The notes below the pieces were generated by a model. The model searched no databases. It was not told the origin of the DNA and was given only the letters and a program-made list of their open reading frames with translations. This document shows, in pieces, positions 1,714 to 28,907 of a stretch of 64,000 bases of DNA. The position numbers and the translations under genes were made by a program. The stretch lies in the NCBI GenBank assembly GCA_020845515.1, contig JADLFQ010000046.1:1-64000 (forward strand), read 5' to 3'. Numbering within the stretch: position 1 is the first letter of the stretch; every line of letters begins with the position of its first letter. Source of the DNA: Anaerolineaceae bacterium (lineage in GTDB: Bacteria; Chloroflexota; Anaerolineae; Anaerolineales; Anaerolineaceae).

Positions 1714-2466
1714 ATGGAAATAAAAGGTAAAACTGCGCTGGTTACTGGCGGCGCGCAGCGCGTCGGTAAAGGGATCACGCTTGGATTGGCGCGCGCCGGA
1801 GCGAATATCGTCGTCAACTACCATAGCTCTGCTGAGGAAGCCGCACAAACCGTACGGGAAGCCGAAGCACTGGGTGTTTCAGGATTGGCGGTGCAGGCTG
1901 ATGTGTCCGATTGGGAACAGGTTCAGCGGATGTTTGAAGAGGTCAACAACAAAACCCCGGGTGTAGATATCCTGGTGAACAATTCCTCGCTTTTCCTTAC
2001 CACCCCGGTGCCGAGCATGGATATGGGAAACTGGCATAAAGTGACCAGTGTGCTCCTTGATGGCTCGTTCTATTGTACGAATATGGCCGCCTTTCACATG
2101 TTAGAGAAAAAAGAAGGGGCGGTGATCAATATAGTAGACTTGTCGGTCTGGGAAGCCTGGCCGAGATTTTCGGCGCACGCGGTTGGAAAATCCGGGCTGA
2201 TGGCGCTGACGCGCCAGTTCGCGTTAGACCTGGCACCGTATGTGCGAGTGAACGCGGTGTGCCCCGGGCCGGTGCTGCCCCCTGACCATTACAGCCCGGA
2301 AAAAATAAAGCGTTCTGCTGACAAGACTTTGCTGCACCGCTGGGGCTCCCCGGAGGATATTTCGAAGGCGGTGAACTTCCTGGTGGATGCGGACTATATC
2401 ACCGGCGAGGTGATCATCGTTGATGGCGGACAGCGCTTTGGACACCGCCAGACAGAAGAAGGTTAA
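1714..2466 (+). CDS. SDR-family oxidoreductase
   Basis: N-terminal ALVTGGAQRVGKGI Rossmann motif, NNSS, C-terminal ITGEVIIVDGGQRFG; 250 aa. Confidence 0.9.
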   Translation: MEIKGKTALVTGGAQRVGKGITLGLARAGANIVVNYHSSAEEAAQTVREAEALGVSGLAVQADVSDWEQVQRMFEEVNNKTPGVDILVNNSSLFLTTPVPSMDMGNWHKVTSVLLDGSFYCTNMAAFHMLEKKEGAVINIVDLSVWEAWPRFSAHAVGKSGLMALTRQFALDLAPYVRVNAVCPGPVLPPDHYSPEKIKRSADKTLLHRWGSPEDISKAVNFLVDADYITGEVIIVDGGQRFGHRQTEEG

Positions 2467-2523
2467 CTGCTCGCTGAATACCCGCGAGATTATCAATCAC
2501 CTATTATTAGAGGAGTAATAACC

Positions 2524-3309
2524 ATGAGCGTAGTACGAAGAATGAAACGAATTTTTGCACCTGATGGCAAAGCACTGATTGTTGCAATGGATCATGGCAG
2601 CATGGATGGTCCGTGCAAAGGGTTGGAAAACCCTGGAAAAACGATTGAAAAAATTGTAAGCGGTGGCGCCAATGCCATCCTGACAACTTATGGTATTTCG
2701 CGGCGCTATGCAGCGGAACTGGCTGGCATCGGTTTGATCATGCGCTCTGATGGCGGCGGCACTTCAATCGGCCCCGGAGGCGGCCCTGGCAGAATTTTCT
2801 TCCAGGTGGAAGAGGCTTTGCGGCTGGGCGCGGACGCGCTGGCGGTTTCGGCTTTTCCGGGCGCAGCGAATGAAGCAGAGACGTTGGAAAACCTGGCGTG
2901 TATTGCCGCCGAGGCGCACAAGTGGGGGCTTCCGGTGTTGGGCGAAATGGTGCCCGGCGGGTTTGATGTCAAGCCTGAGATGCGCACAACCGAAAACATT
3001 GCCCTGTCTGCCCGGGTGGGTTCTGAGTACGGTGCGGATATTATTAAAACCCCTTATGCAGACAATTTTACGGCAGTTACCAGCACCAGCTATGTGCCGG
3101 TTGTGATTCTGGGCGGGGCGAAGCGGGGCAAGGAACGCGATATGTTAGCGGATATTAAGGCAGCGATTGATGCTGGCGCTTCCGGCGTTGCCATTGGGCG
3201 TAACATCTGGCAGTCGGAGAACCCGGCTGCGATGACAGCAGCTGTGGCGGCCATCTTACATAAAAACGCCAGTGTTGACGAGGCGATGGATATTCTCACT
3301 AAAAAATAG
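2524..3309 (+). CDS. DhnA/LsrF-type class I aldolase
   Basis: [43 protein letters not shown] and [14 protein letters not shown]...[12 protein letters not shown]...[20 protein letters not shown] are class I aldolase (DeoC/FbaB) features. Confidence 0.88.
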
Positions 3310-3330
3310 GAATCATAGGAAGAGTGAAAA

Positions 3331-4125
3331 ATGAAACCAGATTTTAAACGCTTTGTCGGACAGGTGGCTGTAGTTACCGGCGGCGCCAAGGGCATCGGCG
3401 GCGCGTGTGCGCTGCGTTTTGCCCAAGAGGGCGCCAACGTGGCGATTTTAGATGTGGACATGAAGGCGGGCGAAGAAAACGCCAAAGCTTGCATGGCTGA
3501 GGGCGTGGAGGCGCTGGTGCTGAATTGCAACGTGGCGGATGAGACCAGCATGCAGGCGGCCATTGATGCGGTTGTGAATAAGTGGGGACGGATTGATGTG
3601 CTGGTGGCGGCTGCGGGCATCTACAGCGGCAAGCCGCTGACCGAAGTGACGATGAAGCAGTGGCAACGCTTGATTGATATCAACCTGACCGGCGTTTTCC
3701 TGAGCAATCGTGCGGTGGCACCGGTAATGATGAAACAGAAATCCGGAAGCATTATTAATATCTCCTCCATGGCCGGGAAAACCAGCTTCCCTGCTTCGGC
3801 GGAATATTCGGCCTCCAAGAGCGGCGTGATTGGTCTGACCCGCACGGTCGCGATGGATATGGCGCCGTATAACGTAACCGTTAACGCCATCTGCCCAGGC
3901 AACACTGTAACCGACATGGTGGTCAAAGAAGTATCGGTGCAGGTGAGCGCGGCGGTTGGCATGAGCCCGGAAGAATGGATACAGATGCGCGCCAACGATG
4001 CGCCGCTGAAACGGCTGGCCGAACCGTGGGAGATGGGAGGCGTGGCGGCTTTTCTGGCTTCGCAGGATTCCCGATATATTACCGCACAGTCCATTGAGGT
4101 GGACGGCGGCATCATTATGACATAG
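3331..4125 (+). CDS. SDR-family 3-oxoacyl-ACP reductase/sugar dehydrogenase-like protein
   Basis: [60 protein letters not shown]. Confidence 0.9.
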
Positions 4126-4141
4126 ACAGGACGAGGTTGGC

Positions 4142-5182
4142 GTGACCAAAACAAGAACAACGATTTTCACTGGACCCAAGCAGCTTGAAGTTAAGGAGGT
4201 GGAGTTACCGCCTCTGGGAGAGCGGCAGGTGCTTGTCAAGATAAAAGCTTGCGCGATTTGCACCTGGGAACAGCGCTTTTACAAAGGTTCTGCAAGCGAA
4301 GACTACCCTTTCCGTGGCGGGCACGAAACCTCCGGTGAGGTGGTTGCGTTGGGAAGCGGAGCCAAGACAGACGCCAAACCCGGCGACGGCGCCGCGCTGG
4401 CGATTATGAATCGCTGTGGTTCATGCGATAACTGCCGGCGTGGTATGGATAATTTTTGCGAGAACGATGACGGCGGGAAGGGGATTGCTGGCCTGCCGTG
4501 GGGACCTGGGGGGTTGAGCGATTATATAATCGTGGAAGATTATCAACTTTATAAAGTGAACGCGGTGCACGATTACGCCGCGCTGGCGCTGGCAGAACCG
4601 GTAGCTTGTGTGCTGCGCAGTGTACATACTCCCGAATTGGAAGAGGGTGATACTGTTTTGGTGCAAGGCGTGGGGATGATGGGCTTGCTGCATGTGCAAC
4701 TGCTGCAACACCGCGGGGTGCGCGTCCTGGTCAGTGAGCCTGATGCTGCCAGGCGCAAGAAAGCATTGGAAGAAGGCGCTATCGCGGGTTATAACCCGAT
4801 GGAAGCAGACGGGAAACAATTTGTCAAGGACCATACCGGCGGAAGAGGCGTAAAAGCTGTATTCTTCACCGCGGGAGGGGTTCCGGCAGTTGAGGCGGGT
4901 ATTCCGCTGCTTGCCAAGCGTGGTTGGATGTGCCTGTACGGTTCAATTCACCCGAAAGGGATGATGGCAATTGACCCGAATATTATTCACTATGAAGAAT
5001 TGGTGATCACGGGGAGTTTCTCGCATACCAAAGCGAGTTTCCGTCAGGCGGTGGCTTTGCTGGCGCAAGGACAGGTGAACACGGCACCTTTCATCAGCGA
5101 GCGGGTCGCTTTCCCGAATGTTGACTATGCCTTTGAACGCGCCATCAGCCCGGATACTTACCGGGTGGTGATGGAATTTTAG
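4142..5182 (+). CDS. Zinc-dependent alcohol dehydrogenase (threonine/sorbitol dehydrogenase-like), GTG start
   Basis: GGHETSGEVVALG, CGSCDNCRRGMDNFCEN structural-Zn site, VLVQGVGMMGLLHVQLL Rossmann motif. Confidence 0.88.
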   Translation: MTKTRTTIFTGPKQLEVKEVELPPLGERQVLVKIKACAICTWEQRFYKGSASEDYPFRGGHETSGEVVALGSGAKTDAKPGDGAALAIMNRCGSCDNCRRGMDNFCENDDGGKGIAGLPWGPGGLSDYIIVEDYQLYKVNAVHDYAALALAEPVACVLRSVHTPELEEGDTVLVQGVGMMGLLHVQLLQHRGVRVLVSEPDAARRKKALEEGAIAGYNPMEADGKQFVKDHTGGRGVKAVFFTAGGVPAVEAGIPLLAKRGWMCLYGSIHPKGMMAIDPNIIHYEELVITGSFSHTKASFRQAVALLAQGQVNTAPFISERVAFPNVDYAFERAISPDTYRVVMEF

Positions 5183-5200
5183 TGCAAGACGGGAGTTATC

Positions 5201-6721
5201 TTGTCGCCTGATAAAGTATTACTGGGAATTGACATTGGCACACAAGCTGTAAAGGCGCTGGCAGTGGATTTGAAAGGCCGCGTTCTGGCACAAACTGCGC
5301 TGGAACGCGGCCCGCAACACCCGCGCCCGGGCTGGGTGGAGATGGATGCCGCCCAGGACTTGTGGAATCCGGCGGCACAGCTTCTGCGGCGGCTATTCCG
5401 GAGCGAAAAAATTAACCCGCAGGATGTGGCTGTGGTGGGGGTGAGCGCGCTGGTGCCTTGCCTGTGTGCGCTGGATGAGCATGGCAGCCCGGTGAGCGAG
5501 GTTATTTTGTATTCCGATAACCGCGCACTAAAAGAACTGGAATGGGTCAACCAAACGGCAGAACTCAACCTTACCGCCGAGGCTGTCATTCCCAAGCTGG
5601 TTTGGCTGCGCAACAACCACCCCGACCGCTTCAGCCGCATTCGGACCATCTTCTCTGCACATAACTATGTGGTGTACCGGCTGACGGGTGCGCGCCATGT
5701 GGATTACGATACTGCCGGGATTCTGGGCGGGATTTTAGACTCGCGTGCCAGGCGCTGGAAAGAAGAAGTTTTTGAGCGCCTTGATCTCCCTTTGCCCATC
5801 CTGCCGCCGCTCTCTGCGGCGACTGGGCTGGTGGGAACAGTGACACCGGAAGCTTCCCGGCAGACCGGATTGCCTGCCGGCACCCCGGTAATTGCCGGTA
5901 CGGGTGACACCTTCCCGACGATTGTTGGGTGCGGCGTGATTGATGTGGGCGATGCGATGGTCTCGTATGGAACCACCGGCCTGCTCACATTGGCGCAGAA
6001 ACCGCTGGCGCTTTCTGCGGGGGGGCCGCATTTTGACGATGGCAGCGGGGAAGCCTCGCTTTTGTGGATCGCGAACATTCTTTCTGCCGGGCGGTTGATC
6101 CGCTGGTATTTTGAGCAATTTGGCCAGATGGAGGAGATTGTTGCAGGCCGCATGAGAACGAGCATGCATGATTTACTCGATGCTCAGGCGGGGTACCTGC
6201 CGCCGGGTGCGGATGGTTTGATCGCGCTGCCACACTGGCTTGGCCGCCGCACCCCATTGCCCGACGCGCACATGCGCGGAGCGCTGCTTGGTTTTACCCC
6301 CAGCCACACCCCGGCACACATCTACCGTGCCATCCTGGAAGCTTTTGGCTACAATATGCGCCAGTCTTTTGAGGCAGTGCGGCCACTGGCGAAACGGATG
6401 GTCGCCACAGCAGGAGGGGCACGCAGCCGTTTGTGGCGGCAGATTGTCGCCGATATTCTCAAGACACCGCTCGAGTATTATCCTGCTGCCAGCGGCGCGT
6501 TAGGCATTGCTTTTCTGGCAGGCTACGCTGCCGGTCTCATCCAAGACTTTGGCACAATTAAAAACACCTGGCTGCAAGACCCACAAATCACACTGCCTGA
6601 TGAACAGGCATCTTCAGTTTACGACCACTATTTTGAAATCTATTGCAATTTTGACCGCCAAGCGGCGGCGACTTTTGCGAAACTGGCACAGGTTACCGCC
6701 CAACCCATAGGCGAAGCGTGA
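5201..6721 (+). CDS. FGGY-family carbohydrate kinase, TTG start
   Basis: LLGIDIGTQAVKALAVDLKGRVLA, GTGDTFPTIVGCGVIDVGDAMVSYGTTG, TAGGARSRLWRQIVADIL. Confidence 0.9.
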   Translation: MSPDKVLLGIDIGTQAVKALAVDLKGRVLAQTALERGPQHPRPGWVEMDAAQDLWNPAAQLLRRLFRSEKINPQDVAVVGVSALVPCLCALDEHGSPVSEVILYSDNRALKELEWVNQTAELNLTAEAVIPKLVWLRNNHPDRFSRIRTIFSAHNYVVYRLTGARHVDYDTAGILGGILDSRARRWKEEVFERLDLPLPILPPLSAATGLVGTVTPEASRQTGLPAGTPVIAGTGDTFPTIVGCGVIDVGDAMVSYGTTGLLTLAQKPLALSAGGPHFDDGSGEASLLWIANILSAGRLIRWYFEQFGQMEEIVAGRMRTSMHDLLDAQAGYLPPGADGLIALPHWLGRRTPLPDAHMRGALLGFTPSHTPAHIYRAILEAFGYNMRQSFEAVRPLAKRMVATAGGARSRLWRQIVADILKTPLEYYPAASGALGIAFLAGYAAGLIQDFGTIKNTWLQDPQITLPDEQASSVYDHYFEIYCNFDRQAAATFAKLAQVTAQPIGEA

Positions 6722-6724: not shown

Positions 6725-7393
6725 TTGGAAGAGGTTAGCTTGATAACTAAAAAAACCAGCAACGAGCAGGGACGCATTAGCGGGCGCCTGAGGAAAAAGC
6801 GACTTCAAGCAGGTTTGAGTATTCGCGAGCTGGCAAGGCGCACCAACCTGACAGCATCCTTCCTCAGCCAGGTGGAAAATGAAAAAGCGAACCTTTCACT
6901 GGAGTCGCTGCGGCGCATATCTGAGGTTTTGGGCGTACAAATGTTGTATTTTCTTTCCGATTTTCCGGACAGCAGTGTTGAGTCCATGGCAGTTCCTGAA
7001 AGCTTGATTACCCCTGACGGATTGGCGGAGGCGCGGAATCTGTTAGACCGCACCTACCCACTGATCAAAGCAGATTTAAGGCCACAACTCTCTTTGCCGG
7101 ATGCCGGTGTTACGTATGAATTGCTGACCTCACGCCTTGACCATAAAATGGAAGCCTTTTTGGGGAGAATATCACCGGGAACAGGAAATGTGAGCAATAC
7201 GTTAAGGACTGCGACGGAGGAATTTGTCTTTGTTCTTTCCGGTGTGTTGAAGGTGGGAATTAAGGACCGGATTTTTCTGGTTGAAGCGGGAGATTCGATC
7301 TATTTTGAAGGGCAGTCTCTGACTTATATGGCAAATGGCAGCGATACCGAGGAGACTGTCTGGCTCTCGGTGGTCTCACCTCCGGCGTTTTAG
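6725..7393 (+). CDS. XRE-family HTH plus cupin transcriptional regulator, TTG start
   Basis: RLRKKRLQAGLSIRELARRTNLTASFLSQVENEKANLSLESLRRISEVLGV (HTH) followed by a C-terminal cupin segment (EEFVFVLSGVLKVGIKDRIFLVEAGDSIYFEG). Confidence 0.9.
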   Translation: MEEVSLITKKTSNEQGRISGRLRKKRLQAGLSIRELARRTNLTASFLSQVENEKANLSLESLRRISEVLGVQMLYFLSDFPDSSVESMAVPESLITPDGLAEARNLLDRTYPLIKADLRPQLSLPDAGVTYELLTSRLDHKMEAFLGRISPGTGNVSNTLRTATEEFVFVLSGVLKVGIKDRIFLVEAGDSIYFEGQSLTYMANGSDTEETVWLSVVSPPAF

Positions 7394-7878: not shown

Positions 7879-8850
7879 ATGATTAGTATCAATCGAGAAG
7901 CAATGAAACTTGTCCGAGAGATTCTTGAATCTCCGGCGGTATTTGATGTGCAGGTTTCGCAACTTCAAAACGGCGCCACAGTAATTGATATGGGGCAAAA
8001 AGCTATGGGAACATGGCTTGCGGCAAAGTATTACACCTTGATCAGTATGGGCGGTATCGGACAGGTGAGTTATGAAGGTTTTATGCTCGACCATGTCTCT
8101 TTGCCTGCCGTAAGAGTGATGATTGATTATCCAATTGAAACTTGCGTCGCTTCCCAAATAGCAGGCTGGAGACTGGAATCAGGAGAGGATTCGGTAATCG
8201 TTGCAGGACCAGCCCGAGCTTTGAATAAAAAGAACCCGGATCATTTTATGAAAATTGTTCCATACCGGGACGAAAATAATGAGGGAGTCATTGCTCTACA
8301 GACTGCCAGGCCTATCTCGGAAGGGATAGCTGCACAGATTGCCGAATCTTGTGGGCTGGCGCCGCAGAATCTTTATATTCTGGTTGCAGCGAATTCCAGT
8401 TTGGTTTGTGCAGTTCAAGTATCGGCGCGGGTGATTGATATTTTATTACACCGGCTTGCAGTTGCAGATTTTGATATTAATATCTCTCGATTTGGACAAG
8501 GGTACTGCGTCATTCCTCCTTTGATAAATGACCAGCATATTTCTTTTGGACGGATCAATGATGCTATTGTGTATGGCAGTGTTGCTATGTTGTACGTCGA
8601 AGGGGACGATGAGGAAATCGAGAACATAGTCAAACAAATACCCTCTTCGGTTTCCCCGGTTTATGGGAGGCCCTTTCTTGAAATTTATGAGGATGCAGGG
8701 CGGGATTTCTATAATATTCCGATGAATTTGAACTCCCCTGCTGTAGTGCACATAAATAATTTAAACTCCGGAAACACCTTTAGCGCAGGGGAAATTAATT
8801 ATGATGTGCTCAGTCATTCTTTCTTTGGAAAGCCGTCATCAAAAAAGTAA
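7879..8850 (+). CDS. mch: Methenyltetrahydromethanopterin cyclohydrolase (Mch) homologue
   Basis: Protein starting MISINREAMKLVREILESPAVFDVQVSQLQNGATVIDMGQKAMGTWLAAKYYTLISMGGIGQVSYEGF...LPAVRVMIDYPIETCVASQIAGWRLE...GPARAL...SSLVCAVQVSARVIDILLHRL...RINDAIVYG matches the archaeal/methylotroph Mch family pattern. ATG 7879 has an upstream GGAGG and is preferred over the track start TTG 7771. Confidence 0.85.
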   Translation: MISINREAMKLVREILESPAVFDVQVSQLQNGATVIDMGQKAMGTWLAAKYYTLISMGGIGQVSYEGFMLDHVSLPAVRVMIDYPIETCVASQIAGWRLESGEDSVIVAGPARALNKKNPDHFMKIVPYRDENNEGVIALQTARPISEGIAAQIAESCGLAPQNLYILVAANSSLVCAVQVSARVIDILLHRLAVADFDINISRFGQGYCVIPPLINDQHISFGRINDAIVYGSVAMLYVEGDDEEIENIVKQIPSSVSPVYGRPFLEIYEDAGRDFYNIPMNLNSPAVVHINNLNSGNTFSAGEINYDVLSHSFFGKPSSKK

Positions 8851-9015
8851 GGCAATTAATAAAGGAGGATTTGATCAAAAGAAGTGATAGCAAGAATAAA
8901 ACACCCCAAGCTCTGATCTTAAGCCAGACTCTTGGGAATTCAGAGAGATTCACCCACTCATCGAGCGGTGAGCAAGCTGGTGCCCATCCGCGCTCTAAAT
9001 AAGGAGAGAAAAGCC

Positions 9016-10035
9016 ATGAACCGTATTAGAATATTGGTGTCCGTTTTGATTGCCTTTGCGATCCTAAGTGGCTGCAGTAGTCCAGCGACCTCCGCCGCAG
9101 GTGATCAACCTACTGCAGGTGCAGCAAAGCCGTTTAAGGTGGGGTTGTTAACGACAGGGCCTGTGAATGATAAGGGGTATAACCAGCAAGGTTATGAGGG
9201 GTTACAGAGAATTAAAAATGAATTAGGGGCAGAGATTAGCAATGTTGAGCTGGAAGATAACCCCTCCCTTTATGAGAAAGCAATCCGTGATTATGCAAGC
9301 CAGGGTTATGATCTGATCATGGCACATGGGAAGCAATTTCAAGATGCAGCCAATACCGTTGCACCAGATTTTCCCGACACGATTATTTCTGTCACCAGCA
9401 GCAGCGTGGCCAAGGATAATGTGATTGGGGTCGCCTTGGATATTCCGCAGAGTTTTTACGTTCTGGGGGTAATCGCTGGCAGTATGGCGGATAAAGTAGG
9501 GATGATCGGCGGACAAGAAATTCCCTCTATTCAAGGCAGTTTCACCGGTTTTATGAATGGCGCCCGCAGCGTCAACCCGGATGTGGAATTCAGTGTTGTT
9601 TATTTAGGTGGATTCACGGATGTAGCCGGGGCAAAGGAAGCGGCGCTGAGTATGGTAGCTTCTCAAGGCGTAGAGTTTTTGCTTCCGAACGCCAACATTG
9701 CCAGTCAGGGTGTGTACCAGGCATGCGCTGAAGCGAATGTTCTGTGTATAGGAGTGTTTGGGAACCAAACAGATTTTGCCCCAAAAAACATTGTGGTTAA
9801 TTATGCTTCGGATTTCGGTGTAGCCTTGAATATTTTAGCCAAGCAGGTCAAGGATGGTACTGTAGTTCGTGGGAAGCCAATTGTTTTGGGTCTGGAGGCA
9901 CAAGGTGTGGCTGCTTACCTCTACAATGAAAATGCCAATGTGCCCGTCCCAGAGAGTGCCCGCAAAGCTGTGGATGAGGCAAAGCAAAAACTCATTAATA
10001 AGGAAGTTGACCCAAGTGCCCCTGTAACGCCATAG
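9016..10035 (+). CDS. BMP/PnrA-family ABC transporter substrate-binding lipoprotein
   Basis: Start ATG 9016 with GGAGAG RBS; signal peptide with lipobox LSGC; KVGLLTTGPVNDKGYNQQGYEGL...YEKAIRDYASQGYDLIMAHGKQFQDAA typical of BMP family. Confidence 0.92.
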   Translation: MNRIRILVSVLIAFAILSGCSSPATSAAGDQPTAGAAKPFKVGLLTTGPVNDKGYNQQGYEGLQRIKNELGAEISNVELEDNPSLYEKAIRDYASQGYDLIMAHGKQFQDAANTVAPDFPDTIISVTSSSVAKDNVIGVALDIPQSFYVLGVIAGSMADKVGMIGGQEIPSIQGSFTGFMNGARSVNPDVEFSVVYLGGFTDVAGAKEAALSMVASQGVEFLLPNANIASQGVYQACAEANVLCIGVFGNQTDFAPKNIVVNYASDFGVALNILAKQVKDGTVVRGKPIVLGLEAQGVAAYLYNENANVPVPESARKAVDEAKQKLINKEVDPSAPVTP

Positions 10036-10096
10036 AAAAGCAAGGAAAAAATATTGTGCTCAATCAATATTTAGGCCATCTGTAAACTTCACTTAA

Positions 10097-10138
10097 TCAT
10101 GCTATGCCGGCCTTACAGATTTACCCGGCATAGCATGA
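10097..10138 (+). promoter_or_regulatory. 14-bp perfect inverted repeat between substrate-binding protein and permease genes
   Basis: TCATGCTATGCCGG (10097-10110) / CCGGCATAGCATGA (10125-10138), 14-nt loop; no U-tract. Confidence 0.75.
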
Positions 10139-11280
10139 CAATGGATTTCACATTTATGCAACCGCAACTTTCTTCCGGTTCGAGTGGTAAAGCTTCTCAT
10201 TCTAAAATTAATAAAACATCTCTCTCACGGGATTTGAGATTTGTATGGGAGCGGAGCAAGAAATTCCTTACCCCTTTAGTGGCGATTGCCCTCGCTTTAG
10301 GAATAGGCGCTGTTCTTATGTATTTAAATGGGTATTCTCCACTCCGTGCTTATTCCACGTTGTGGTGGGGAGCCTTCGGGAACCTTAGAAATATAAGTGA
10401 AGTTCTTGTTAAGGCGACACCCTTAATGTTTACCGGCTTGGCGATGGCGGTTGCATTTCGCGCCAGTATTTGGAACATGGGCGCTGAAGGTCAATTTTTT
10501 GTAGGGGCTATTGCCACAACATGGGTGGGCATTCACCTGGGTTATCTTCCGCCCTGGATTCTTATCCCCTTGGAGATGGCCGCCGGAATCATGGCTGGTG
10601 CTTTGGCAGGGATGTTAGCCGGGTATTTGAAAGTCCGTTTTAATGCCAATGAAGTAGTCACTACAATAATGATCAATTATCTGATCATTATTGGGACGAA
10701 CTATCTGGTAACCGGGCCGATGAAAGAGGTAACCCAGGATAGCTTCCCTCAATCAGCGCTTATCTCGGCAAATGCCTTTCTGCCAAGGATCGTACCGACG
10801 ACTCGTTTAAATATTGGTTTTCTAATTGCCATCGTTTTATCCATAATCATGTATTTATTGATTTTTAAGACCAGCTTTGGTTATGCTCTTCGCGCTACTG
10901 GAATAAACCCTGAAGCAGCGCGGTTTGCCCGAATGGATACAAAAAAGATCGCTTTGCTGGTAATGGCTCTCAGTGGCGGTCTGGCAGGGTTAGGGGGGTC
11001 TATCGAAATTGCCGGATTAGCCCACCGGCTTTTCTCAAATGTATCTCCCGGGTATGGTTGGGACGGTATTGCGGTATCCCTGTTGGTAAATAACAATCCC
11101 CTGGGAGTTATGTTCTCCGGGATTCTGTTCGGAGCACTTCGTTCAGGGTCAGAAATTATGCAAATTAATGCCGGTATCCCCTCGGTGCTTAACTCTGCTA
11201 TTCAGGGAATTGTCATTTTATCCGTGATTGCGTTCGGCGCTTATCGGTTTATTTCCAACAAAAAAGAAGGTAAGGAGTAA
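10135..11280 (+). CDS. ABC transporter permease (nucleoside/BMP-type, branched-chain permease fold)
   Basis: KATPLMFTGLAMAVAFRASIWNMGAEGQFFVGAIATTWVG typical of YufP/NupB permeases. The track start 10099 lies inside the hairpin; in-frame ATG 10135 or 10141 is more plausible. Confidence 0.9.
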   Translation: MTMDFTFMQPQLSSGSSGKASHSKINKTSLSRDLRFVWERSKKFLTPLVAIALALGIGAVLMYLNGYSPLRAYSTLWWGAFGNLRNISEVLVKATPLMFTGLAMAVAFRASIWNMGAEGQFFVGAIATTWVGIHLGYLPPWILIPLEMAAGIMAGALAGMLAGYLKVRFNANEVVTTIMINYLIIIGTNYLVTGPMKEVTQDSFPQSALISANAFLPRIVPTTRLNIGFLIAIVLSIIMYLLIFKTSFGYALRATGINPEAARFARMDTKKIALLVMALSGGLAGLGGSIEIAGLAHRLFSNVSPGYGWDGIAVSLLVNNNPLGVMFSGILFGALRSGSEIMQINAGIPSVLNSAIQGIVILSVIAFGAYRFISNKKEGKE

Positions 11281-11285
11281 CTTCG

Positions 11286-12227
11286 ATGGAAGACATACAA
11301 TGGATAGTTGGGCTGCAAGGTATCCTGGTCGCAACTATTCGGTTGGCGACTCCATTAATCTTTTCCGGGATTGGCCTGGTAATCGCTGAACAGGCCGGGG
11401 TGGTGAATATCGGCCTGGAAGGGATTATGCTATTAGGCGCCTTTACCGGCTGGACAATAGGTTTTTATTCGGGCAGTCTGATCTTGGGGCTGGCGGCTGT
11501 CATCATTGTAGGTTTAATTTCCGGGTTAATTTTCGCACTTTTTACCGTCACGATCAGGGCAAATCAAATTGTGGTGGGCGTAGCTTTTAATATGTTAGGA
11601 ATTGGGCTTTCCGGTTTTCTTTACCGCACTTTATTTGGGCGTGAAATAGGCCTTTTGAAATTGGAAAGTTTTCAATCCATTGAAATTCCCTTTCTAAGCA
11701 ACTTACCTTTCATCGGTAAAATACTGTTTCAGCAAAATATCCTGGTATATAGTTCCTTTGTTTTTTGTCTTCTGGCGATCTATGTTCTCTACCATACTGC
11801 CGCGGGGCTTGCAATACGCTCAGTCGGCGAGCATCCACGTGCAGCGGATACAATGGGGATAAATGTATTTTTAGTGCGATATTTATGTGTTTTGATGAGT
11901 GGGGTTGGTGCGGCTCTTGGAGGCGCATTTCTGTCTATAGCCTACACCAACATATTTGTTGAAAACATTGTCTCAGGCCGTGGATACATAACCCTCGCGA
12001 TTGTTGCATTTGGACGTTGGAAACCCGTTGGGACCCTGATAGGTGCTTTAATTTTTGGTCTTTTTTATGCCATTCAACTTAATTTGCAATCGCTGAGGGG
12101 AATTGTCATTCCTTACCATGTTTTCCAGGCTTTACCCTATTTCATGACTATTCTTGCACTGCTCAGTATGCGCGGCCGCGCAATCAGACCGAAAGCATTA
12201 GGCAAACCTTATGAACCCTCAGCATAA
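11286..12227 (+). CDS. ABC transporter permease (nucleoside/BMP-type)
   Basis: RLATPLIFSGIGLVIAEQAGVVNIGLEGIMLLGAFTG...RSVGEHPRAADTMGI typical of YufQ/NupC permeases. Confidence 0.9.
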   Translation: MEDIQWIVGLQGILVATIRLATPLIFSGIGLVIAEQAGVVNIGLEGIMLLGAFTGWTIGFYSGSLILGLAAVIIVGLISGLIFALFTVTIRANQIVVGVAFNMLGIGLSGFLYRTLFGREIGLLKLESFQSIEIPFLSNLPFIGKILFQQNILVYSSFVFCLLAIYVLYHTAAGLAIRSVGEHPRAADTMGINVFLVRYLCVLMSGVGAALGGAFLSIAYTNIFVENIVSGRGYITLAIVAFGRWKPVGTLIGALIFGLFYAIQLNLQSLRGIVIPYHVFQALPYFMTILALLSMRGRAIRPKALGKPYEPSA

Positions 12228-13773
12228 ACAATCGGAATCGAGAGGAGAAAATTTGCTTCTCTCAATGGAGAAAATCAATAAAATCTTTCCGGGAAACGTT
12301 GTTGCTACCAATAACGTCAGTTTGGAAGTTAGACAAGGAGAGATACATTGCTTACTGGGAGAGAATGGGGCAGGTAAAACTGTACTCATGAATATACTCT
12401 ATGGAATGTATCAGCCTGATTCCGGGCAGATATATTACAAGGGTCAGCCAATCTCTATTCATTCTCCGAAGGATTCTATCGAAAATCGCATTGGAATGGT
12501 CCACCAACATTTTATGCTGGTTGAAACTTTGACTGTCGCAGAGAATATTATTTTAGGACAATGGAAGCCGTGGAAAAATCTGAAGGAAATGGAAAAAGTC
12601 CACGAGCGCATTAAAAATTTAGGCGAAGAGTATGGGTTGTTTGTCAATCCAAATGCGTTGATAAGAGAGTTATCCGTGGGGGAACAGCAGAGAGTGGAAA
12701 TCCTTAAAGCTCTCTATCGTGGAACGGACTTGCTCATTCTTGACGAACCCACATCCGTATTAACACCTCAAGAGACAGTGCAGTTACTTAATCTTTTGCG
12801 CGGGCTGGCCGATAAAGGATTGACCATAATTTTCATTACGCACAAATTTGAAGAAGTCTTCCAGGTTAGTGATCGGGTTACAGTACTTCGAGACGGTCAA
12901 CTGGTTGGCACCACGGACACTGCTCAGACGACATTCGGGGAACTGGCTAAATGGATGGTGGGCAGGGAAGTCTTCATGGATTTGGATCGGTCTAAATCCA
13001 ATTCCAAGGAAGTCGTACTTTCTGTGCGGGGTTTGCAGGCTACAGATGAACGCGGTTTATTGGCGGTCAAGGATGTATCCTTCGACGTACACGCAAATGA
13101 AATCGTTGGAATTGCGGGAGTATCAGGGAACGGGCAAACAGAACTGGCGCTTGGGCTGGCCGGATTAATTGAAATAAAGTATGACCGGCTGGAGCTATGC
13201 GGCCAAGAGCTAAAAAAAATTACAGCAAAAAACCTTGATCGGATAGGATTTGGTCACATTCCAGAGGACCGCCAAGGAATGGGATTGATTTTACCTTTTT
13301 CCGTGGCAGAGAATTTTATTCTGGGAGAATACAATAGTGAACCCTATTCTCATTATGGTTTCCTCCAAAACCGGCAAATCATTAATCATGCCCAGTTATT
13401 GGTTAACAAGTTTAGTGTACGCGTTTCGAATGTAAAAGAAGAAATCACCAATCTTTCGGGTGGAAATCAACAAAAAGTGGTTGTGGCGCGCGAGTTAAAT
13501 CGAAACCCGAATTTCTTATTGGTCAATCAACCGACAAGGGGTATTGATATTGGTGCAACTGAATTTGTATATCAACAAATCTTAAAACAACGCGACGCGG
13601 GGTCAGCCGTGTTACTGATTTCCACCGACCTGGAAGAGGTCTTCAAGCTCAGTGATCGAGTTTTGGTGATGTTTGAAGGACAAATTATTGGGGAGGTTCC
13701 CCCCGACCGGGAACAGATATTTAAGGTGGGTTTGATGATGGCGGGCAAACAGGTAGAAGAGGAATTGGCGTGA
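12211..13773 (+). CDS. ABC transporter ATP-binding protein with two ABC domains (BMP/sugar type)
   Basis: Walker A GENGAGKT, LSVGEQQRVEILKALYRGTDLLILDEPTSVLTP; second domain LSGGNQQKVVVARELNRNPNFLLVNQPTRGID. Confidence 0.95.
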   Translation: MNPQHKQSESRGENLLLSMEKINKIFPGNVVATNNVSLEVRQGEIHCLLGENGAGKTVLMNILYGMYQPDSGQIYYKGQPISIHSPKDSIENRIGMVHQHFMLVETLTVAENIILGQWKPWKNLKEMEKVHERIKNLGEEYGLFVNPNALIRELSVGEQQRVEILKALYRGTDLLILDEPTSVLTPQETVQLLNLLRGLADKGLTIIFITHKFEEVFQVSDRVTVLRDGQLVGTTDTAQTTFGELAKWMVGREVFMDLDRSKSNSKEVVLSVRGLQATDERGLLAVKDVSFDVHANEIVGIAGVSGNGQTELALGLAGLIEIKYDRLELCGQELKKITAKNLDRIGFGHIPEDRQGMGLILPFSVAENFILGEYNSEPYSHYGFLQNRQIINHAQLLVNKFSVRVSNVKEEITNLSGGNQQKVVVARELNRNPNFLLVNQPTRGIDIGATEFVYQQILKQRDAGSAVLLISTDLEEVFKLSDRVLVMFEGQIIGEVPPDREQIFKVGLMMAGKQVEEELA

Positions 13774-14762
13774 TCAAACTTGGAACAGCTTTAAATTACA
13801 CCCCCAATATGTCTGTAGGGAAGATCGTTGAACTTGCCCAGGAGGCAGAACGTTTGGGTTTTTCGCGCTGCTGGATTGCAGATGAAGGTATTGTAACTCG
13901 GGATTGTTATGTAACGTTGGGCGCCATTGCACAGAAGACCAGCTCCATTTTATTGGGGACTGGCATTACAAACCCCCTGAGCCGCCATCCGGCTGTGACT
14001 GCAGGAGCGATTGCCAGCCTGGACGACATTTCCGGTGGCCGTGCCTTTCTCGGTATTGGCGCCGGAGGGAGTGTAACCTTCAACTCTCTCGCGCTGAAAC
14101 ATGAAAAACCCCTCACCGCAGTACGGGAGACGCTGCTTGCAACCAGGGCGCTCTTTCACGGAGAGGTAGTCACTTTCAATGGCGAGGCGGTGAAACTTCA
14201 TGAGGCGCACTTGGCTTATGCCAGACCGGATATTGAAATCTGGCTCGCCGGCCGAGGCAAAAAAATGCTATCACTTGGCGGAGAACTGGCCGATGGGGTT
14301 TTACTATCCTTTATGCATAGAGCACTGATTCCTGAGTATATTGATATCATCAAAAGCGCCGCCGCCGCGAAGGATAAGAAGCCCAAGATTTGCTATGCGT
14401 CCTATATTATTCCCAATGATAAAATTTTTAATGAGATGCGCGGCCAGTTGCTTTTTCGTATTCTAGATTCTCCCCCCCAGGTAAAAGAGTTAATCGGATT
14501 TACACCCAAAGATGAGAAAATGATCCGTCAGGCAATCGACGCGAATGATAGTAAACAAGCCTCCAGTCTATTAAAAGTTGATTGGGTTCGCCCGTTTGTA
14601 ATTATAGGATCGAGCGAAGAGTGTGCTGCTCAGATGGCTGATTTAATGAATACATTTCAGGTTGATGAATACATGCTTTCCATTTACAATCCAGAAACAG
14701 CACCTGAATTAATGGAGCACACCGCCAAAACCCTAAAAACACTCCAGAAGAATATGCCCTAG
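13770..14762 (+). CDS. Luciferase-like (LLM) flavin/F420-dependent oxidoreductase, 5,10-methylene-H4MPT reductase (Mer)-like
   Basis: SVGKIVELAQEAERLGFSRCWIADEGIVTRDCYVTLGAIAQKTSSILLGTGITNPLSRHPAVTAGAIASLDDISGGRAFLGIGAGGSVTFNSL resembles Mer. GTG start overlaps the ATPase stop. Confidence 0.75.
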   Translation: MIKLGTALNYTPNMSVGKIVELAQEAERLGFSRCWIADEGIVTRDCYVTLGAIAQKTSSILLGTGITNPLSRHPAVTAGAIASLDDISGGRAFLGIGAGGSVTFNSLALKHEKPLTAVRETLLATRALFHGEVVTFNGEAVKLHEAHLAYARPDIEIWLAGRGKKMLSLGGELADGVLLSFMHRALIPEYIDIIKSAAAAKDKKPKICYASYIIPNDKIFNEMRGQLLFRILDSPPQVKELIGFTPKDEKMIRQAIDANDSKQASSLLKVDWVRPFVIIGSSEECAAQMADLMNTFQVDEYMLSIYNPETAPELMEHTAKTLKTLQKNMP

Positions 14763-18389: not shown

Positions 18390-19751
18390 ATGCATACAGA
18401 CCAAAGCCTGCTGATTGAAAATGGAACCATTGTTACAGTGGATGACCGCGATACGGTGCATTCAACCGGATATGTGCTGGTGCAAGGAGATTCCATCGCG
18501 GCGGTTGGCGCAGGCGCTCCGCCGGCAGCGATGAAGCAGCAAGCCCAAACCGTGCTGGATGGCACCAATATGGCGGTGATGCCCGGCATGGTCAACAGCC
18601 ACACACACTTGTTCCAGTCCTTCATTCGGGGACGCGGCGATGATAAAACTTTATTGGAATGGATTAAGGCATACATCTGGCCGATTGCTGAAAATATGAC
18701 CCAGGAAGAGACTTACCTGGCCGGACTGGTGGGGTTGATGGAGAATATCCGCTGCGGTGGAACGGCGGTGCTTGATCACCAATACATTCACGCCGACCCA
18801 ACCTGCGATGACGGCTTTTACCGGGCAGGGCGTGAGACGGGTGTACGACTGATGCTGGCGCGCGGCTGGGCGGATATGGCCTACCGCGAAAGCTTGATGG
18901 AGAGCCCGGAGCAGATTATTGCCGAGTCAACCCGCCTGTTTGAGACCTATCATGGGTCTGAGAACGGGCGGTTGCTTTTTGAATTTGGGCCGGTGATTCC
19001 CTGGGGATGTACAGATGAAACCATGCGCAAGACTTACGAATTGGCGCAGAAGTGGGGGGTTGGCACACACATTCATGTAGCCGAAACCCGTGAAGAAGTG
19101 GAAATAAGCATCAAAAACCGCGGCAAACGGCACATTGAATGGCTGGCGGATCTTGGTATTTTAGGACCGGATGTACAACTGGTGCACAGTGTGTGGCTGG
19201 ATGACCATGAACTGGATTTGGTGCAGCAGCACGACGCGGTGATTGTACATTGTCCGGTCAGCAATATGTATCTGGCTTCGGGCGCGGCGCGCATCCCCGA
19301 GATGCACAAAATGGGTATTACGATCGCTCTGGCGAGCGACGGCCCCGGCAGCAACAACAACCAGGATATGATGGAGGTGCTGAAAACCACAGCCCTGCTG
19401 GCAAAACTTTCTACATTAAATGCTCAGGCGGTACTCCCGGAACAGGTGCTGCGCATGGCGTGCAGGGGTGGTTCAAAAGCCTTTGGACAGCCGGACAAAC
19501 TGGGCTCGCTTGAGGTTGGCAAGAAAGCCGATATTGTCATGGTGGACCTGGATACGCCTTTTGCCATGCCGGTACATAACGCGGTTTCTGCGCTGGTATA
19601 CAATCTGAGCTATGGCTCTGTGGATACGGTTGTGGTGGATGGCAAAATTTTAATGAAGGGGAAAGAAATTCTGGTGGTAGATGAGAAAGAAGTGCTGAAG
19701 GAAGCGCGCATAGTTTGTAAAAAGTTGTTTGAACGTGCGGGTGTACGATAA
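18390..19751 (+). CDS. ATZ/TRZ/SsnA-type amidohydrolase (deaminase-like)
   Basis: MPGMVNSHTHLFQSFIRGRGDDKTLLEWIKAYIWP, HIHVAETREEVE, HCPVSNMYLASG, ASDGPGSNNNQDMMEVLKTTALLAK. Confidence 0.9.
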   Translation: MHTDQSLLIENGTIVTVDDRDTVHSTGYVLVQGDSIAAVGAGAPPAAMKQQAQTVLDGTNMAVMPGMVNSHTHLFQSFIRGRGDDKTLLEWIKAYIWPIAENMTQEETYLAGLVGLMENIRCGGTAVLDHQYIHADPTCDDGFYRAGRETGVRLMLARGWADMAYRESLMESPEQIIAESTRLFETYHGSENGRLLFEFGPVIPWGCTDETMRKTYELAQKWGVGTHIHVAETREEVEISIKNRGKRHIEWLADLGILGPDVQLVHSVWLDDHELDLVQQHDAVIVHCPVSNMYLASGAARIPEMHKMGITIALASDGPGSNNNQDMMEVLKTTALLAKLSTLNAQAVLPEQVLRMACRGGSKAFGQPDKLGSLEVGKKADIVMVDLDTPFAMPVHNAVSALVYNLSYGSVDTVVVDGKILMKGKEILVVDEKEVLKEARIVCKKLFERAGVR

Positions 19752-19757
19752 GACAAA

Positions 19758-20474
19758 ATGATAAAAGAAACGAGACGCGGTTTAGCGGTAAGGGAGAAAA
19801 GGCCCCTCAATCGGGTGCAAAAAGCCATGGCGAAAGGGATGAAAGCCAGTGTTGAGACACTGGCGCTGAGCCAGTTGAGCCGTGAGATGGATGTTACCGG
19901 GCTGCAGGCGGTACGAAAGCCGGCAACTGGCGGCGGGAAAGCGCTCTCGCTTAATACGCTCATCATGGCTGCGGCGGCGCGAACCCTGCCGGCACACCCG
20001 CTTTTGAACGCAGAACTGGTGGAAAGTGAGATTGTAGTCTTTGAAGCGGTTAATGTAGGGATGGCGGTTGCCACCCCGGCGGGTTTGATCGTTACGGTGA
20101 TTCAGAATGCAGATCAGCTCTCCCTGCAGGAGATGGACGGAGAAATCAACCGGCTGGCTGGACGGGCGCGCAGCGGAAAGCTGGAACTGGCTGATATTGA
20201 GGGCGGAACTTTTACGGTGAGCAACTTGGGGATGTTCGGTGTTGATAGCGGCAACCCCCTGCCCCGCCCTCCGGAAAGTGCGATCATGCTGCTGGGCGCA
20301 GTACGCCCGCGAGCCGGAGTTGTGGATGGACAAGTGGCGGTGCGCGAAACTTGTTGGATGACGGTTTCCTACGATCATCGCTTTATTGATGGTGCAACTG
20401 CGGCTGCTTTTTTAGAGGATTTGAGCAAGGTATTGGCGGAGCCTCAACAGTTGTACGAGGGAACACGAGGATAA
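19758..20474 (+). CDS. 2-oxoacid dehydrogenase acyltransferase (E2) catalytic core lacking lipoyl and peripheral-subunit-binding domains
   Basis: RPLNRVQKAMAKGMKAS, TVSNLGMFGVDSGNPLPRPPESAIMLLGAVRPRAGV, SYDHRFIDGATAAAFLEDL (HxxxDG catalytic motif); only 238 aa. Confidence 0.88.
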   Translation: MIKETRRGLAVREKRPLNRVQKAMAKGMKASVETLALSQLSREMDVTGLQAVRKPATGGGKALSLNTLIMAAAARTLPAHPLLNAELVESEIVVFEAVNVGMAVATPAGLIVTVIQNADQLSLQEMDGEINRLAGRARSGKLELADIEGGTFTVSNLGMFGVDSGNPLPRPPESAIMLLGAVRPRAGVVDGQVAVRETCWMTVSYDHRFIDGATAAAFLEDLSKVLAEPQQLYEGTRG

Positions 20475-20484
20475 AAAAGGATAT

Positions 20485-21894
20485 ATGGACAAAGCAGATC
20501 TCTTGCTTACGCATGCATTGATCGTTACCCAGGACAAGGGGCGTGCTATCATCCCGGATGGTGCAATTGCCATCTGGCAGGGGCGCATCGCAGCACTTGG
20601 AGCGACGGGTGAGATTGCCAGCCGCTTTAAGGCGGATGAAACGCTTGATATGACAGGCAAGATCGTCTTTCCTGGTCTGGTTAATACACATGACCATCTC
20701 TTTCAAGTTGCTACGAAGGGATTGGGCGAAGATATGCCGGTTGAAAAGTGGGTGGCGGCTGTCACCTCTCCGACGGCGCTCAGTATTTCGCCGGAAGAAA
20801 TTTATATCTTTGTGCTGACAGGCTGCCTTGAGCTTATTCACAGCGGGGTGACGACTGTCGTGGATATGAATTATAAGGGGATGCAATTTAAATCGCATGA
20901 TGAAAATATTCGTGCCATGACCGATAGCGGCTTGCGCGGGCGGTACACGACCACGATCACGGACTACGGGAAAGAATACAATGTCCTGCCGCAGATGGTT
21001 GACCCAATCGAATGGTATATTGAGGAATACACCCGCCTGTTTGAAAAATATCCGCCGACTGACCGGCTGGCAGTATGGTTTTCAATCGGTGCTCCGTGGA
21101 CGATTACACGGGAAGGACAAATGGCGATTAAAAAGGTTTCGGATGAAACCAATACGCCCATTGTCATGCACATCAACGAAAACTATGCGGATAATGAGAC
21201 GATTATACGCCGCTATGGCAAACCTGTTATCCCGTTCTATGATGAGATTGGTTTTTTGAGCCCAAAACTGTTGGCGATTCACTGTGTGGAAATGAGTGAT
21301 ACGGATATTGAACTGTTTGTCAAGCATGATGTCAAAGTTTCGCATAACCCGGTCAGTAACATGTATCTTGGTTCCGGTATTGCTCCGGTTATGAAAATGC
21401 ACAAAGCCGGGTTAACAATCTCGCTGGGTGTGGATGGCGCCGGCAGTAATAACTCGCAAGATATGCTTGAGACGTTAAAATGTGCAGCACTCCTGCAGAA
21501 AGTCGGCGCGAAGGATGCTTCCGCAGTGGATGCACAAACTGTATTGGATTGGGCGACATTGGGTGGCGCTAAAGCCCTGGGGTTGGAAAAAGAAATTGGT
21601 TCGCTTGAGGCTGGCAAACGGGCGGATTTGTTCGCGATTGCACTCAATACCCCGAAAGTTGTGCCGGTTCACGATCCGGTCGCTTCGCTGATTTATTCTT
21701 GCGGGCAGCAAAATGTCGTTCTGACGGTTGCGGATGGTAAAGTGCTGATGAAGGATAGCGTTATTCAACATATTGATGAGGCAGGTATCATTGCTCAATG
21801 CCAGGAGGCTGCGCTTGCATTGGCAACGCGTTGTGGCTCCAATTCAAAGGTAAAACGCGGCTGGTGGGGAAACGTCACGGAAAAGTATTCATAG
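20485..21894 (+). CDS. ATZ/TRZ/SsnA-type amidohydrolase (paralogous to 18390)
   Basis: FPGLVNTHDHLFQVATKGLGEDMPVEKWV, HNPVSNMYLGSG, GVDGAGSNNSQDMLETLKCAALLQK. Confidence 0.9.
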   Translation: MDKADLLLTHALIVTQDKGRAIIPDGAIAIWQGRIAALGATGEIASRFKADETLDMTGKIVFPGLVNTHDHLFQVATKGLGEDMPVEKWVAAVTSPTALSISPEEIYIFVLTGCLELIHSGVTTVVDMNYKGMQFKSHDENIRAMTDSGLRGRYTTTITDYGKEYNVLPQMVDPIEWYIEEYTRLFEKYPPTDRLAVWFSIGAPWTITREGQMAIKKVSDETNTPIVMHINENYADNETIIRRYGKPVIPFYDEIGFLSPKLLAIHCVEMSDTDIELFVKHDVKVSHNPVSNMYLGSGIAPVMKMHKAGLTISLGVDGAGSNNSQDMLETLKCAALLQKVGAKDASAVDAQTVLDWATLGGAKALGLEKEIGSLEAGKRADLFAIALNTPKVVPVHDPVASLIYSCGQQNVVLTVADGKVLMKDSVIQHIDEAGIIAQCQEAALALATRCGSNSKVKRGWWGNVTEKYS

Positions 21895-22102: not shown

Positions 22103-23233
22103 ATGAAGAAAACGCTTGTGGTTTTGGTCTCTTTACTGGTGCTCTTTACGATGATGCTCTCGGCTTGTGCGCCGGCAGCTGCACCCGAAAAGGTGGTTGA
22201 GACCGTTGTAGTAGAGGTGGAGAAGGAAGTAGAGAAAGTTGTCGAGAAGACGGTTGTGGTCGAAGCTGAAGCACCCGAAGACCCCATGGCAGTGGCCAGA
22301 GAGAAATTGGCTGGAAAGAAGTTGGCAGGTATTCTCTCCGGTGCAGTGAATGATGCAGGTTGGAACACCCAGGCTTATATGGCTATGGTTTCAGCCCGCG
22401 ATACGTTTGGCCTGGATATTGCCTATACGGAGCATGTGAAGGTTGAGGATGCCGCCCAGGTTATGCGGGATTATGCGGATGCAGGTTTTGACATAATCTT
22501 TGCGCATGGCTATGAATATGCCGATCAAATTGCCCAGGTTGCACAGGAATACCCGAACATTCCGTTTATCCAAACCAATGGGAGCGTAGGGGACATTAAA
22601 AACCTGTACACCATCACGCTCTCAACTGGTGAGGGTGGCTATTTTATGGGCCGGCTGGCTTGCCAGGCAACAAAGACCGGAAAGATCACTATCATTGGGG
22701 CGGATGAATTCCCAATCTGGTCTCACCATATCTTGATGTTCAAGCAGGCATGCACTGACCTTGGTTCAAAAGCTGAGGTTTCAGAAGTGTATATCGGCAG
22801 TTGGAATGATCCTGCAAAAGCCAAACAATTAGCAACCGCTGCGATTGCCAATGGATCGGACATCATCATCAGCAATGCAGATTCCGGCGACACCGGTACG
22901 GTTGAGGCTGTCAAAGAGGCCTATGACAAAGGAAACAAAGACGTACGGATGATTTCCTGGGTAAAAGACAAGAATTATCTTGGCCCGGATTTTGTGATCG
23001 GTGGTTGGACAGAAGACGTCGCAGCTGAATTGCTTTACATCCTGGCGGATAAAATTGCAGCAGGAGAACCCGGCGGACACTTCGCAATTGGCATGAAAGA
23101 ACATGCTGCGTACATGAACCCGATCTATGGTCTGGTGTCGATGGACATCGAGAAGGACGTGGTTGCCAAGATAGAAGGCTACTTGAAAGACCCCGGTTCC
23201 ATACCGACTCTAAAAGTACGCACTGATCTTTAA
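22103..23233 (+). CDS. BMP-family ABC transporter substrate-binding lipoprotein
   Basis: MKKTLVVLVSLLVLFTMMLSACAPAAAPEKVVETVVVEVEKEVEKVVEKTVVV signal, lipobox (LSAC) and linker; AGILSGAVNDAGWNTQAYMAM, DAGFDIIFAHGYEYADQIAQVAQEYP. Confidence 0.93.
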   Translation: MKKTLVVLVSLLVLFTMMLSACAPAAAPEKVVETVVVEVEKEVEKVVEKTVVVEAEAPEDPMAVAREKLAGKKLAGILSGAVNDAGWNTQAYMAMVSARDTFGLDIAYTEHVKVEDAAQVMRDYADAGFDIIFAHGYEYADQIAQVAQEYPNIPFIQTNGSVGDIKNLYTITLSTGEGGYFMGRLACQATKTGKITIIGADEFPIWSHHILMFKQACTDLGSKAEVSEVYIGSWNDPAKAKQLATAAIANGSDIIISNADSGDTGTVEAVKEAYDKGNKDVRMISWVKDKNYLGPDFVIGGWTEDVAAELLYILADKIAAGEPGGHFAIGMKEHAAYMNPIYGLVSMDIEKDVVAKIEGYLKDPGSIPTLKVRTDL

Positions 23234-23312
23234 GATGATTTGTTGAAGTATAAATCCCTGAGCGTTTAACTTCGCTGGTCATCCATCGAGCGAAGATGCA
23301 GGGAACCTCTAT

Positions 23313-23348
23313 CGGGTGTCTCCCGACAGTACATTCGGGGGACACCCG
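23313..23348 (+). promoter_or_regulatory. 14-bp hairpin between substrate-binding protein and ATPase genes
   Basis: CGGGTGTCTCCCGA (23313-23326) / TCGGGGGACACCCG (23335-23348), one T-G wobble, 8-nt loop. Confidence 0.8.
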
Positions 23349-23429
23349 GAATTGCAATGAATTTTTTAAAACCCATCAGCTCCGAAGAGCTACCTGCGGC
23401 AATCGAGCACTTATTATCATTCTGAGGCT

Positions 23430-25004: not shown

Positions 25005-26253
25005 AAAACAAAATCTTTGGCAGGCCTTTTTAGAAAAGTCATTCAACATCACGATTCCTGTTGTTGCGATTCTGGCGGCTTTTGCGATCAGCGGGTTGCT
25101 GATTTTGGGGTGGGGATCCAATCCTATTGCCGCTTATAAAGCGATTTTTCAGGGGGCATTTGGCAGTCCTAATGCAATTGCGACGACATTGACCCGTATG
25201 ACCCCCCTGGTATTTACAGGGTTGGCGGTGGCGTATGGCTATAAGGCGGGTTTCTTTAATGTTGGCGCTGAAGGACAGCTTTACATGGGCGCGCTGGCAG
25301 CGACGTGGGTAGGGGTGACTTTTACCAATTGGCCGGGATGGTTGCTTGTGATCGCCTGTTTCCTGGCAGCTTCTCTGGCTGGGGCATTTCTGGCGCTGAT
25401 TCCTGCGTATCTGAAGGCCAAACGTGGATTTAATGAAGTATTGACGACATTGCTGTTTAATTACATCGTTATGCAGTTTTTTGCATGGTCACTGCGTATA
25501 GATCATCCCATGGCGGGAGTGGATGAGAAATGGGGATTGGTCAACTGGTTTGGAATTAAAGACCCAACCCAACCCTATCCCAAATCGGCATTTGTTGCCG
25601 AACAGTCCTGGCTTCCATCCGTCAACAGTTTTTTGAAAACCGGATTTATCAACAGCATCTTTGGCGGTACGCACTGGTATCAGGCGAGTCTGGCTGAACC
25701 TGCATTGGAAAGGATCACACTGGCGCCGCTGCTGGCAGTTTTGGGGGTCATTATCGTATTTGTTCTGATGTTTAAGACCACCATCGGATTTCGGGCAAGA
25801 GCAGTGGGCGTGAGCCCTGACGCTGCCCGCGCTATGGGGATTAATGTCAGCAAGACAATCCTGGTCACCGCGCTTATCAGCGGGACACTGGCGGGCCTGG
25901 CTGGAGCGATGGAGATATTGGGAACGCAGCACCGGGTAATGGAAAGGTTCCTGGTGGATGCTGGTTTTACAGGAATTCCGGTTGCCCTGATTGGACAGTT
26001 GCACCCTGTGGGCGCCTGGCTGAGCGCATTCTTCTTTGGCGCCTTGCGAGCTGGGGCTAACCGGATGCAGATCACTACTGCAGTACCTGTAGCGATGGTC
26101 TATGTTATTCAGGCGTTGACGATCCTGTTCGCGATTGCCGGAACCACCATAGAACTCGTATCGTATTTCAAGAAATCCAGGATGACATCCCTTAGTGAGC
26201 GAGCAGAGGAAGAAAGATTGAGCCTGGAGAACAATGAGGTGCTCGATGCTTGA
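24982..26253 (+). CDS. ABC transporter permease (BMP type)
   Basis: TRMTPLVFTGLAVAYGYKAGFFNVGAEGQLYMGALAATWVG. Start at 24982 shortens the overlap of the 24955 track ORF with the upstream ATPase. Confidence 0.9.
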   Translation: MQAKHQPRKQNLWQAFLEKSFNITIPVVAILAAFAISGLLILGWGSNPIAAYKAIFQGAFGSPNAIATTLTRMTPLVFTGLAVAYGYKAGFFNVGAEGQLYMGALAATWVGVTFTNWPGWLLVIACFLAASLAGAFLALIPAYLKAKRGFNEVLTTLLFNYIVMQFFAWSLRIDHPMAGVDEKWGLVNWFGIKDPTQPYPKSAFVAEQSWLPSVNSFLKTGFINSIFGGTHWYQASLAEPALERITLAPLLAVLGVIIVFVLMFKTTIGFRARAVGVSPDAARAMGINVSKTILVTALISGTLAGLAGAMEILGTQHRVMERFLVDAGFTGIPVALIGQLHPVGAWLSAFFFGALRAGANRMQITTAVPVAMVYVIQALTILFAIAGTTIELVSYFKKSRMTSLSERAEEERLSLENNEVLDA

Positions 26254-27473: not shown

Positions 27474-27480
27474 ATAAAAT

Positions 27481-28837: not shown

Positions 28838-28907
28838 ACCGGCTTGAATTTGTTCGATGCTGCGAGCCTCGTGTGTGAGGTTCCATAAAAACCAGTAAGA
28901 CAGAAAA

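Follow-up and report, generated by a model that had tools for sequence, protein, structure and literature searches.

The window analysed in this study is a stretch of 64,000 nucleotides from an Anaerolineaceae bacterium (GenBank assembly GCA_020845515.1, contig JADLFQ010000046.1), whose Anaerolineae-type genome (G000) is 85% complete. Matches to Pfam and NCBIfam models confirmed that the six same-strand genes of the first-pass annotation are all present at the coordinates it gave; they encode a protein of the Mch family, the solute-binding protein (SBP), two permeases and ATPase of a BMP importer, and a luciferase-like (LLM) oxidoreductase (Table 1). The short or overlapping junctions claimed from the first permease onward were borne out by the ORF coordinates: the two permease genes are 5 bp apart, the second permease gene overlaps the ATPase gene by 17 bp, and the ATPase and LLM genes overlap by 4 bp. 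The gap between the mch-like and SBP genes is at least 81 bp, and it is larger if the SBP starts at its lipoprotein Met.

Table 1. Genes of the six-gene locus and of the surrounding window
Feature	Position	Strand	Remarks
SDR, DhnA-type aldolase, SDR, Zn-ADH, FGGY kinase	1714-6721	+	Lead into the operon
HTH-cupin regulator	6725-7393	+	Pfam HTH_3 and Cupin_2
mch-like gene	7879-8850	+	Pfam MCH 4e-100; TIGR03120 above cut-off; Gln141, Arg184, Asp187
BMP/PnrA-family solute-binding lipoprotein (SBP)	8932-10035	+	Pfam Bmp 3.5e-50
ABC permease 1	10099-11280	+	BPD_transp_2 2e-45
ABC permease 2	11286-12227	+	BPD_transp_2 2e-34
Duplicated ABC ATPase of the BMP importer	12211-13773	+	ABC_tran 2e-51, two matched stretches
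LLM (luciferase-like) oxidoreductase, Mer-related, without Mer Glu6/Asp96	13770-14762	+	Bac_luciferase
COG0402 amidohydrolase, E2 acyltransferase core, second amidohydrolase	18390-21894	+	
Two further complete BMP ABC importers	22103-33088	+	
DAO, GlcD/GlpC-like, FGGY, GlpA, Hdr-like, DAO, HcnA/HcnB genes	35776-48184	+	Some matched in L045
D-hydantoinase, YgeY-like M20 hydrolase, Asp/Glu-racemase-like gene	56905-60352	-	

The first-pass annotation had proposed the six genes as an operon. Its gene calls and architecture are right, but the boundary is too narrow, because for most same-strand genes of the window between about 1 and 48 kb, relatives occur next to Mch-like genes at other loci, and for much of this region the closest match falls in Mch-like loci. 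The gene classes of the segment that leads into the operon recur beside Mch-like genes at L045, L052, L059 and L196, and the best relatives of the amidohydrolase-E2-amidohydrolase block lie in the Mch-like loci L102, L053 and L122. On the opposite strand, the D-hydantoinase passed its model (TIGR02033, 459.6 against a cut-off of 393), and the YgeY-like hydrolase scored 275.9 with PRK13004, under the cut-off of 321. The window amidohydrolases reached 249 and 200 bits with the SsnA equivalog model, below its cut-off of 455.5.

The window Mch-like protein is homologous to canonical Mch (PF02289, TIGR03120) over its full length, carries the catalytic Arg and scores 291.6 bits with TIGR03120, above the equivalog cut-off of 228.8. 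It is set apart, however, by phylogeny and by residues. In a tree built carefully from 35 local sequences, a split with 100/100 support separated six canonical Mch, encoded inside or adjoining Fhc operons, from 29 others including the window copy. In a larger but quick tree of 119 rows, built from loci of a genome-wide scan and three archaeal PDB sequences, and in which canonical Mch is under-represented because the sampling was seeded with paralogs, 108 rows formed a clade with the window protein (SH-aLRT 100), apart from the Fhc-linked and archaeal Mch. Residue 141 is Glu in the archaeal and local canonical Mch but Gln in 105 of the 108 paralogs, the three that retain Glu being of Halanaerobiales type; the paralogs also mostly carry His285 where canonical Mch has Phe. 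Arg184, the counterpart of the catalytic Arg183 of A. fulgidus Mch, is found in 119 of 119 aligned rows. Residue 187, the equivalent of the catalytic Glu186 of that enzyme, is Glu in 112 rows, Asp in six, the window copy among them, and Ala in one; at this residue the window protein departs from Mch. The E186D form of A. fulgidus Mch is reportedly a weak enzyme, and Asp187 may likewise give the window copy low activity. In the 98%-complete genus mate (G001), canonical Mch is a separate gene within an Fhc operon and the window-type genes are located elsewhere; the window family has catabolic neighbours instead of Fhc and Ftr. As judged by these comparisons of sequence, the Mch-like protein is a member of a separate paralog family, and its original assignment as the Mch of an H4MPT pathway is not supported.

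This family ranges over Chloroflexota, Acidimicrobiia, Clostridia, Spirochaetes and Atribacterota. Five Mch-family matches each were found in G000, G001 and G010, 14 of 101 relatives had any at all, and the highest copy number was seven, in one Clostridia genome; the culturable Pseudoflavonifractor sp. 524-17 has five genes of the family. Two divergent Mch-like copies lie within a single operon in Clostridia, which is hard to reconcile with an enzyme of a C1 carrier.

For the LLM protein, Mer is the nearest characterised family and the closest named one, and the luciferase-like fold is shared with Mer and other F420/FMN enzymes. The protein nevertheless missed both Mer equivalog cut-offs, scoring 197.5 bits against 276 and 177.5 bits against 348.7. 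In Mer, Glu6 is catalytic and Asp96 is placed at the pterin ring (PMC11094777); the aligned residues of the window LLM are Asn and Gly, and Glu6 is replaced in every aligned LLM of the clusters; Gln178, which aligned with uncertainty, is left out of this comparison. The identification as Mer thus fails on both scores and residues, an outcome that the first-pass annotation had itself named as counting against its reading.

That annotation had also made the presence of H4MPT and F420 biosynthesis genes a test, and here the results were divided. No match to Ftr, CofH or CofD was found in the 85%-complete window genome, while G001 has Ftr, together with its Fhc operon and the canonical Mch therein, and CofD, but not CofH. 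Ftr was also absent from the 99%-complete G008 and the 97%-complete G027, both of which carry Mch-like genes, and 17 of 19 distant genomes with Mch-family genes lacked it too. Two other markers were set aside: RFAP synthase (TIGR00144) gave no match above cut-off even in Ftr-positive genomes and is uninformative for H4MPT synthesis, and PF01933 conflates CofD with YvcK, the sole match in G000 being YvcK. CofD was above cut-off in 46 of 61 relatives of G000 and the FO synthase CofH in one, with two more under the threshold; CofD without FO synthase across most of the order suggests FO salvage or another cofactor.

To compare gene neighbourhoods we used loci that come almost all from MAGs, with genes called by a simple ORF script. 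Counting up to six genes away from each of 106 Mch-like genes, we found SDR (60), E2 (56), E1a with E1b (44), LLM (42), amidohydrolase (29), HTH-cupin regulator (21), DAO (17) and a full BMP importer (16), whereas the neighbours of the six canonical mch genes are FhcA, FhcB, FhcD and RimK, each beside five of the six. The gene maps fell into three types. The first, E1a-E1b-E2-SDR-Mch-like-LLM, in which E1/E2 is a TPP dehydrogenase, occurs in Acidimicrobiia and Chloroflexota; the second, SDR-Mch-like-E1a-E1b-E2-Mch-like, in Clostridia; and the third, seen in Clostridia and Atribacterota, is ATPase-SBP-Perm-Perm-Mch-like-amidohydrolase, accompanied by DAO, HcnA and HcnB. Among 32 cases in Acidimicrobiia, the SDR gene is directly upstream of the Mch-like gene in 22 and an LLM gene lies at most three genes downstream in 25. 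YgeY above cut-off stands beside Mch-like genes at L056, L059, L100 and L200, and XDH-like, RibD_C and Pterin_bind genes also lie near them. The copy number of RibD_C did not discriminate, being found in all controls, and the PALP gene of L140 is TrpB. The locus L129, labelled 'Fusobacteria', is near-identical to the Bacillota loci L132 and L133, and the 'Methanothrix' locus L157 resembles Anaerolineae clusters; both are probably misbinned, and phylum counts are approximate because of these doubtful labels.

Across the compared loci the components are associated far above chance, but the conservation of order expected by the first-pass annotation was found by half only, since the orders differ elsewhere. 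The exact order mch-SBP-Perm-Perm-ATPase-LLM was found at no other locus among those examined; the nearest, mch-LLM-SBP-Perm-Perm-ATPase, is that of a second copy in the window genome (L031) and one in the genus mate (L036).

The BMP importer of the window is complete as in BMP/PnrA-type ABC importers, with a Bmp binding protein, two permeases and a double ATPase. The relatives of its SBP in the PDB are Lbp, BmpA and AtzT-type proteins; solved PnrA and RfuA are distant, and RfuA is too weak a relative for the importer to be named a riboflavin transporter. Some Clostridial and Spirochaete clusters have instead an ECF importer, with an S component matched to the riboflavin-transporter family PF07155. 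Judged from the neighbour families, nucleoside scavenging is unlikely as the sole role. A search for a riboswitch that would name the ligand covered the window plus 18 related loci and returned only tRNAs.

A parallel to this set of genes is the anaerobic reductive urate pathway (XdhD-YgfK/UacX-SsnA-HyuA-YgeW-YgeY-YgeX), which employs SsnA, HyuA and YgeY and combines ring reduction with amidohydrolase cleavage, and for which an F420-type luciferase-family reductase has been proposed to replace YgfK/UacX in Chloroflexota (PMC12507026). The Mch-like clusters share this logic of reductase and amidohydrolase, and the YgeY, XDH-like and hydantoinase classes with it. We infer the breakdown of an imported N-heterocycle: the operon would be one case of a family of catabolic clusters that import and dismantle such a compound, most likely pteridine, flavin or purine-like and often with a polyol arm. 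We give this reading a probability of about 0.4, ahead of the others. Its direction agrees with the suggestion of the first-pass annotation that a pterin, deazaflavin or purine-like compound is imported and processed, which the wider comparison favours; the H4MPT pathway attached to that suggestion is not retained. It counts against the catabolic reading that the amidohydrolases, YgeY-like protein and LLM of the window are all under their named equivalog cut-offs.

We infer the substrate, the order of the steps and the Mch-like reaction from sequence and gene context, as follows. The BMP importer, or elsewhere the riboflavin-type ECF importer, would bring the compound in, and the LLM enzyme would reduce, and so dearomatise, its ring by hydride transfer. 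The Mch-like enzyme would then use its inherited pair of Arg and Glu/Asp to hydrate a cyclic amidine (N-CH=N) to an N-formyl product, the same ring opening that true Mch performs on methenyl-H4MPT. Amidohydrolases, YgeY-type hydrolases and hydantoinases could process the nitrogen-rich part, and SDR, TPP E1/E2, FGGY kinase and aldolase the side chain.

The conservation of Arg184 in every row and of Glu or Asp at 187 in all but one fits methenyl-pterin chemistry equally well. A dedicated C1 branch is a serious rival, although we hold it to be somewhat unlikely. Here the Mch-like enzyme would act on a methenyl-tetrahydropterin (H4F, an H4MPT-like or a modified carrier), each operon having its own copy to oxidise the C1 units that its substrate gives up, for instance through N-demethylation of the DAO type. 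The DAO and Pterin_bind neighbours described above agree with it, as does a MetF-related gene that adjoins DAO in the window (34362-36981). It is favoured too by a true Ftr that adjoins BMP importer and amidohydrolase genes in the Clostridia genome G108, and by an Ftr-family gene that stands together with DAO, FhcA and FhcB at L207. Against it are the lack of Ftr in most distant carriers and in two nearly complete genomes, the replacement of Glu by Gln and of Phe by His, the two divergent copies in one operon, and an LLM without the Glu and Asp used by methylene-pterin reductases.

Rather less probable is a variant of the reductive purine/urate pathway, with a purine such as 2,8-dioxopurine or an N-alkyl purine as substrate, the LLM as ring reductase and the Mch-like enzyme replacing or complementing SsnA. 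It would account for the LLM, which has been proposed as yanthine reductase in Chloroflexota, for YgeY above cut-off at four related loci, for the D-hydantoinase and YgeY-like genes of the window and for the XDH-like genes near several Mch-like genes. The clusters differ from the urate pathway, however, in the added Mch-like, SDR, TPP E1/E2 and polyol genes; no route of purine breakdown is known to involve the SDR-E1-E2 set, no SsnA at cut-off was seen among the proteins tested beside Mch-like genes, and some clusters have the riboflavin-type ECF importer. The first annotation, in which true Mch and Mer serve an H4MPT pathway alongside a pterin or deazaflavin importer, is highly improbable and already contradicted by the sequences, since the TIGR03120 score and the nearness of the LLM to Mer are outweighed by the separate clade, the residue changes, the missed Mer cut-offs and the lack of Ftr and CofH in the 85%-complete genome.

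A literature search for Mch paralogs, or for a link between Mch and acetoin dehydrogenase, gave nothing relevant, and as far as the literature searched goes this family of Mch-like catabolic clusters is undescribed. Annotation pipelines label the paralogs methenyl-H4MPT cyclohydrolase, the window copy itself scoring above the curated cut-off, and an archaeal-type C1 pathway can therefore be ascribed to genomes that do not have one. If the catabolic reading is true, a widespread route for the breakdown of cofactor-like heterocycles has been missed, in culturable gut Clostridia among others. The recurrent E1-E2-SDR-Mch-like-LLM set opens the question of the substrate to direct test. It is conceivable, although we consider it doubtful, that the Mch fold was recruited many times in several phyla as a ring-opening hydrolase in an undescribed form of vitamin catabolism, the import and degradation of pteridine- or flavin-type cofactors, in which a TPP complex of the acyloin type takes off the side chain.

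Ftr-family genes were also seen in one Clostridia genome at L206 (325-1239), L207 (9204-10109) and L208 (8703-9614), where they belong to catabolic clusters that include amidohydrolases and a BMP or ECF importer and that parallel those of the Mch-like genes; the one tested was above cut-off. In the window itself, the two additional BMP importers stand in tandem downstream of the amidohydrolase-E2-amidohydrolase block, and their ATPases are 68% identical to each other. The MetF-related protein beside the DAO gene (34362-35834) has a long Cys-rich N-terminal extension and resembles a MetV-MetF fusion.
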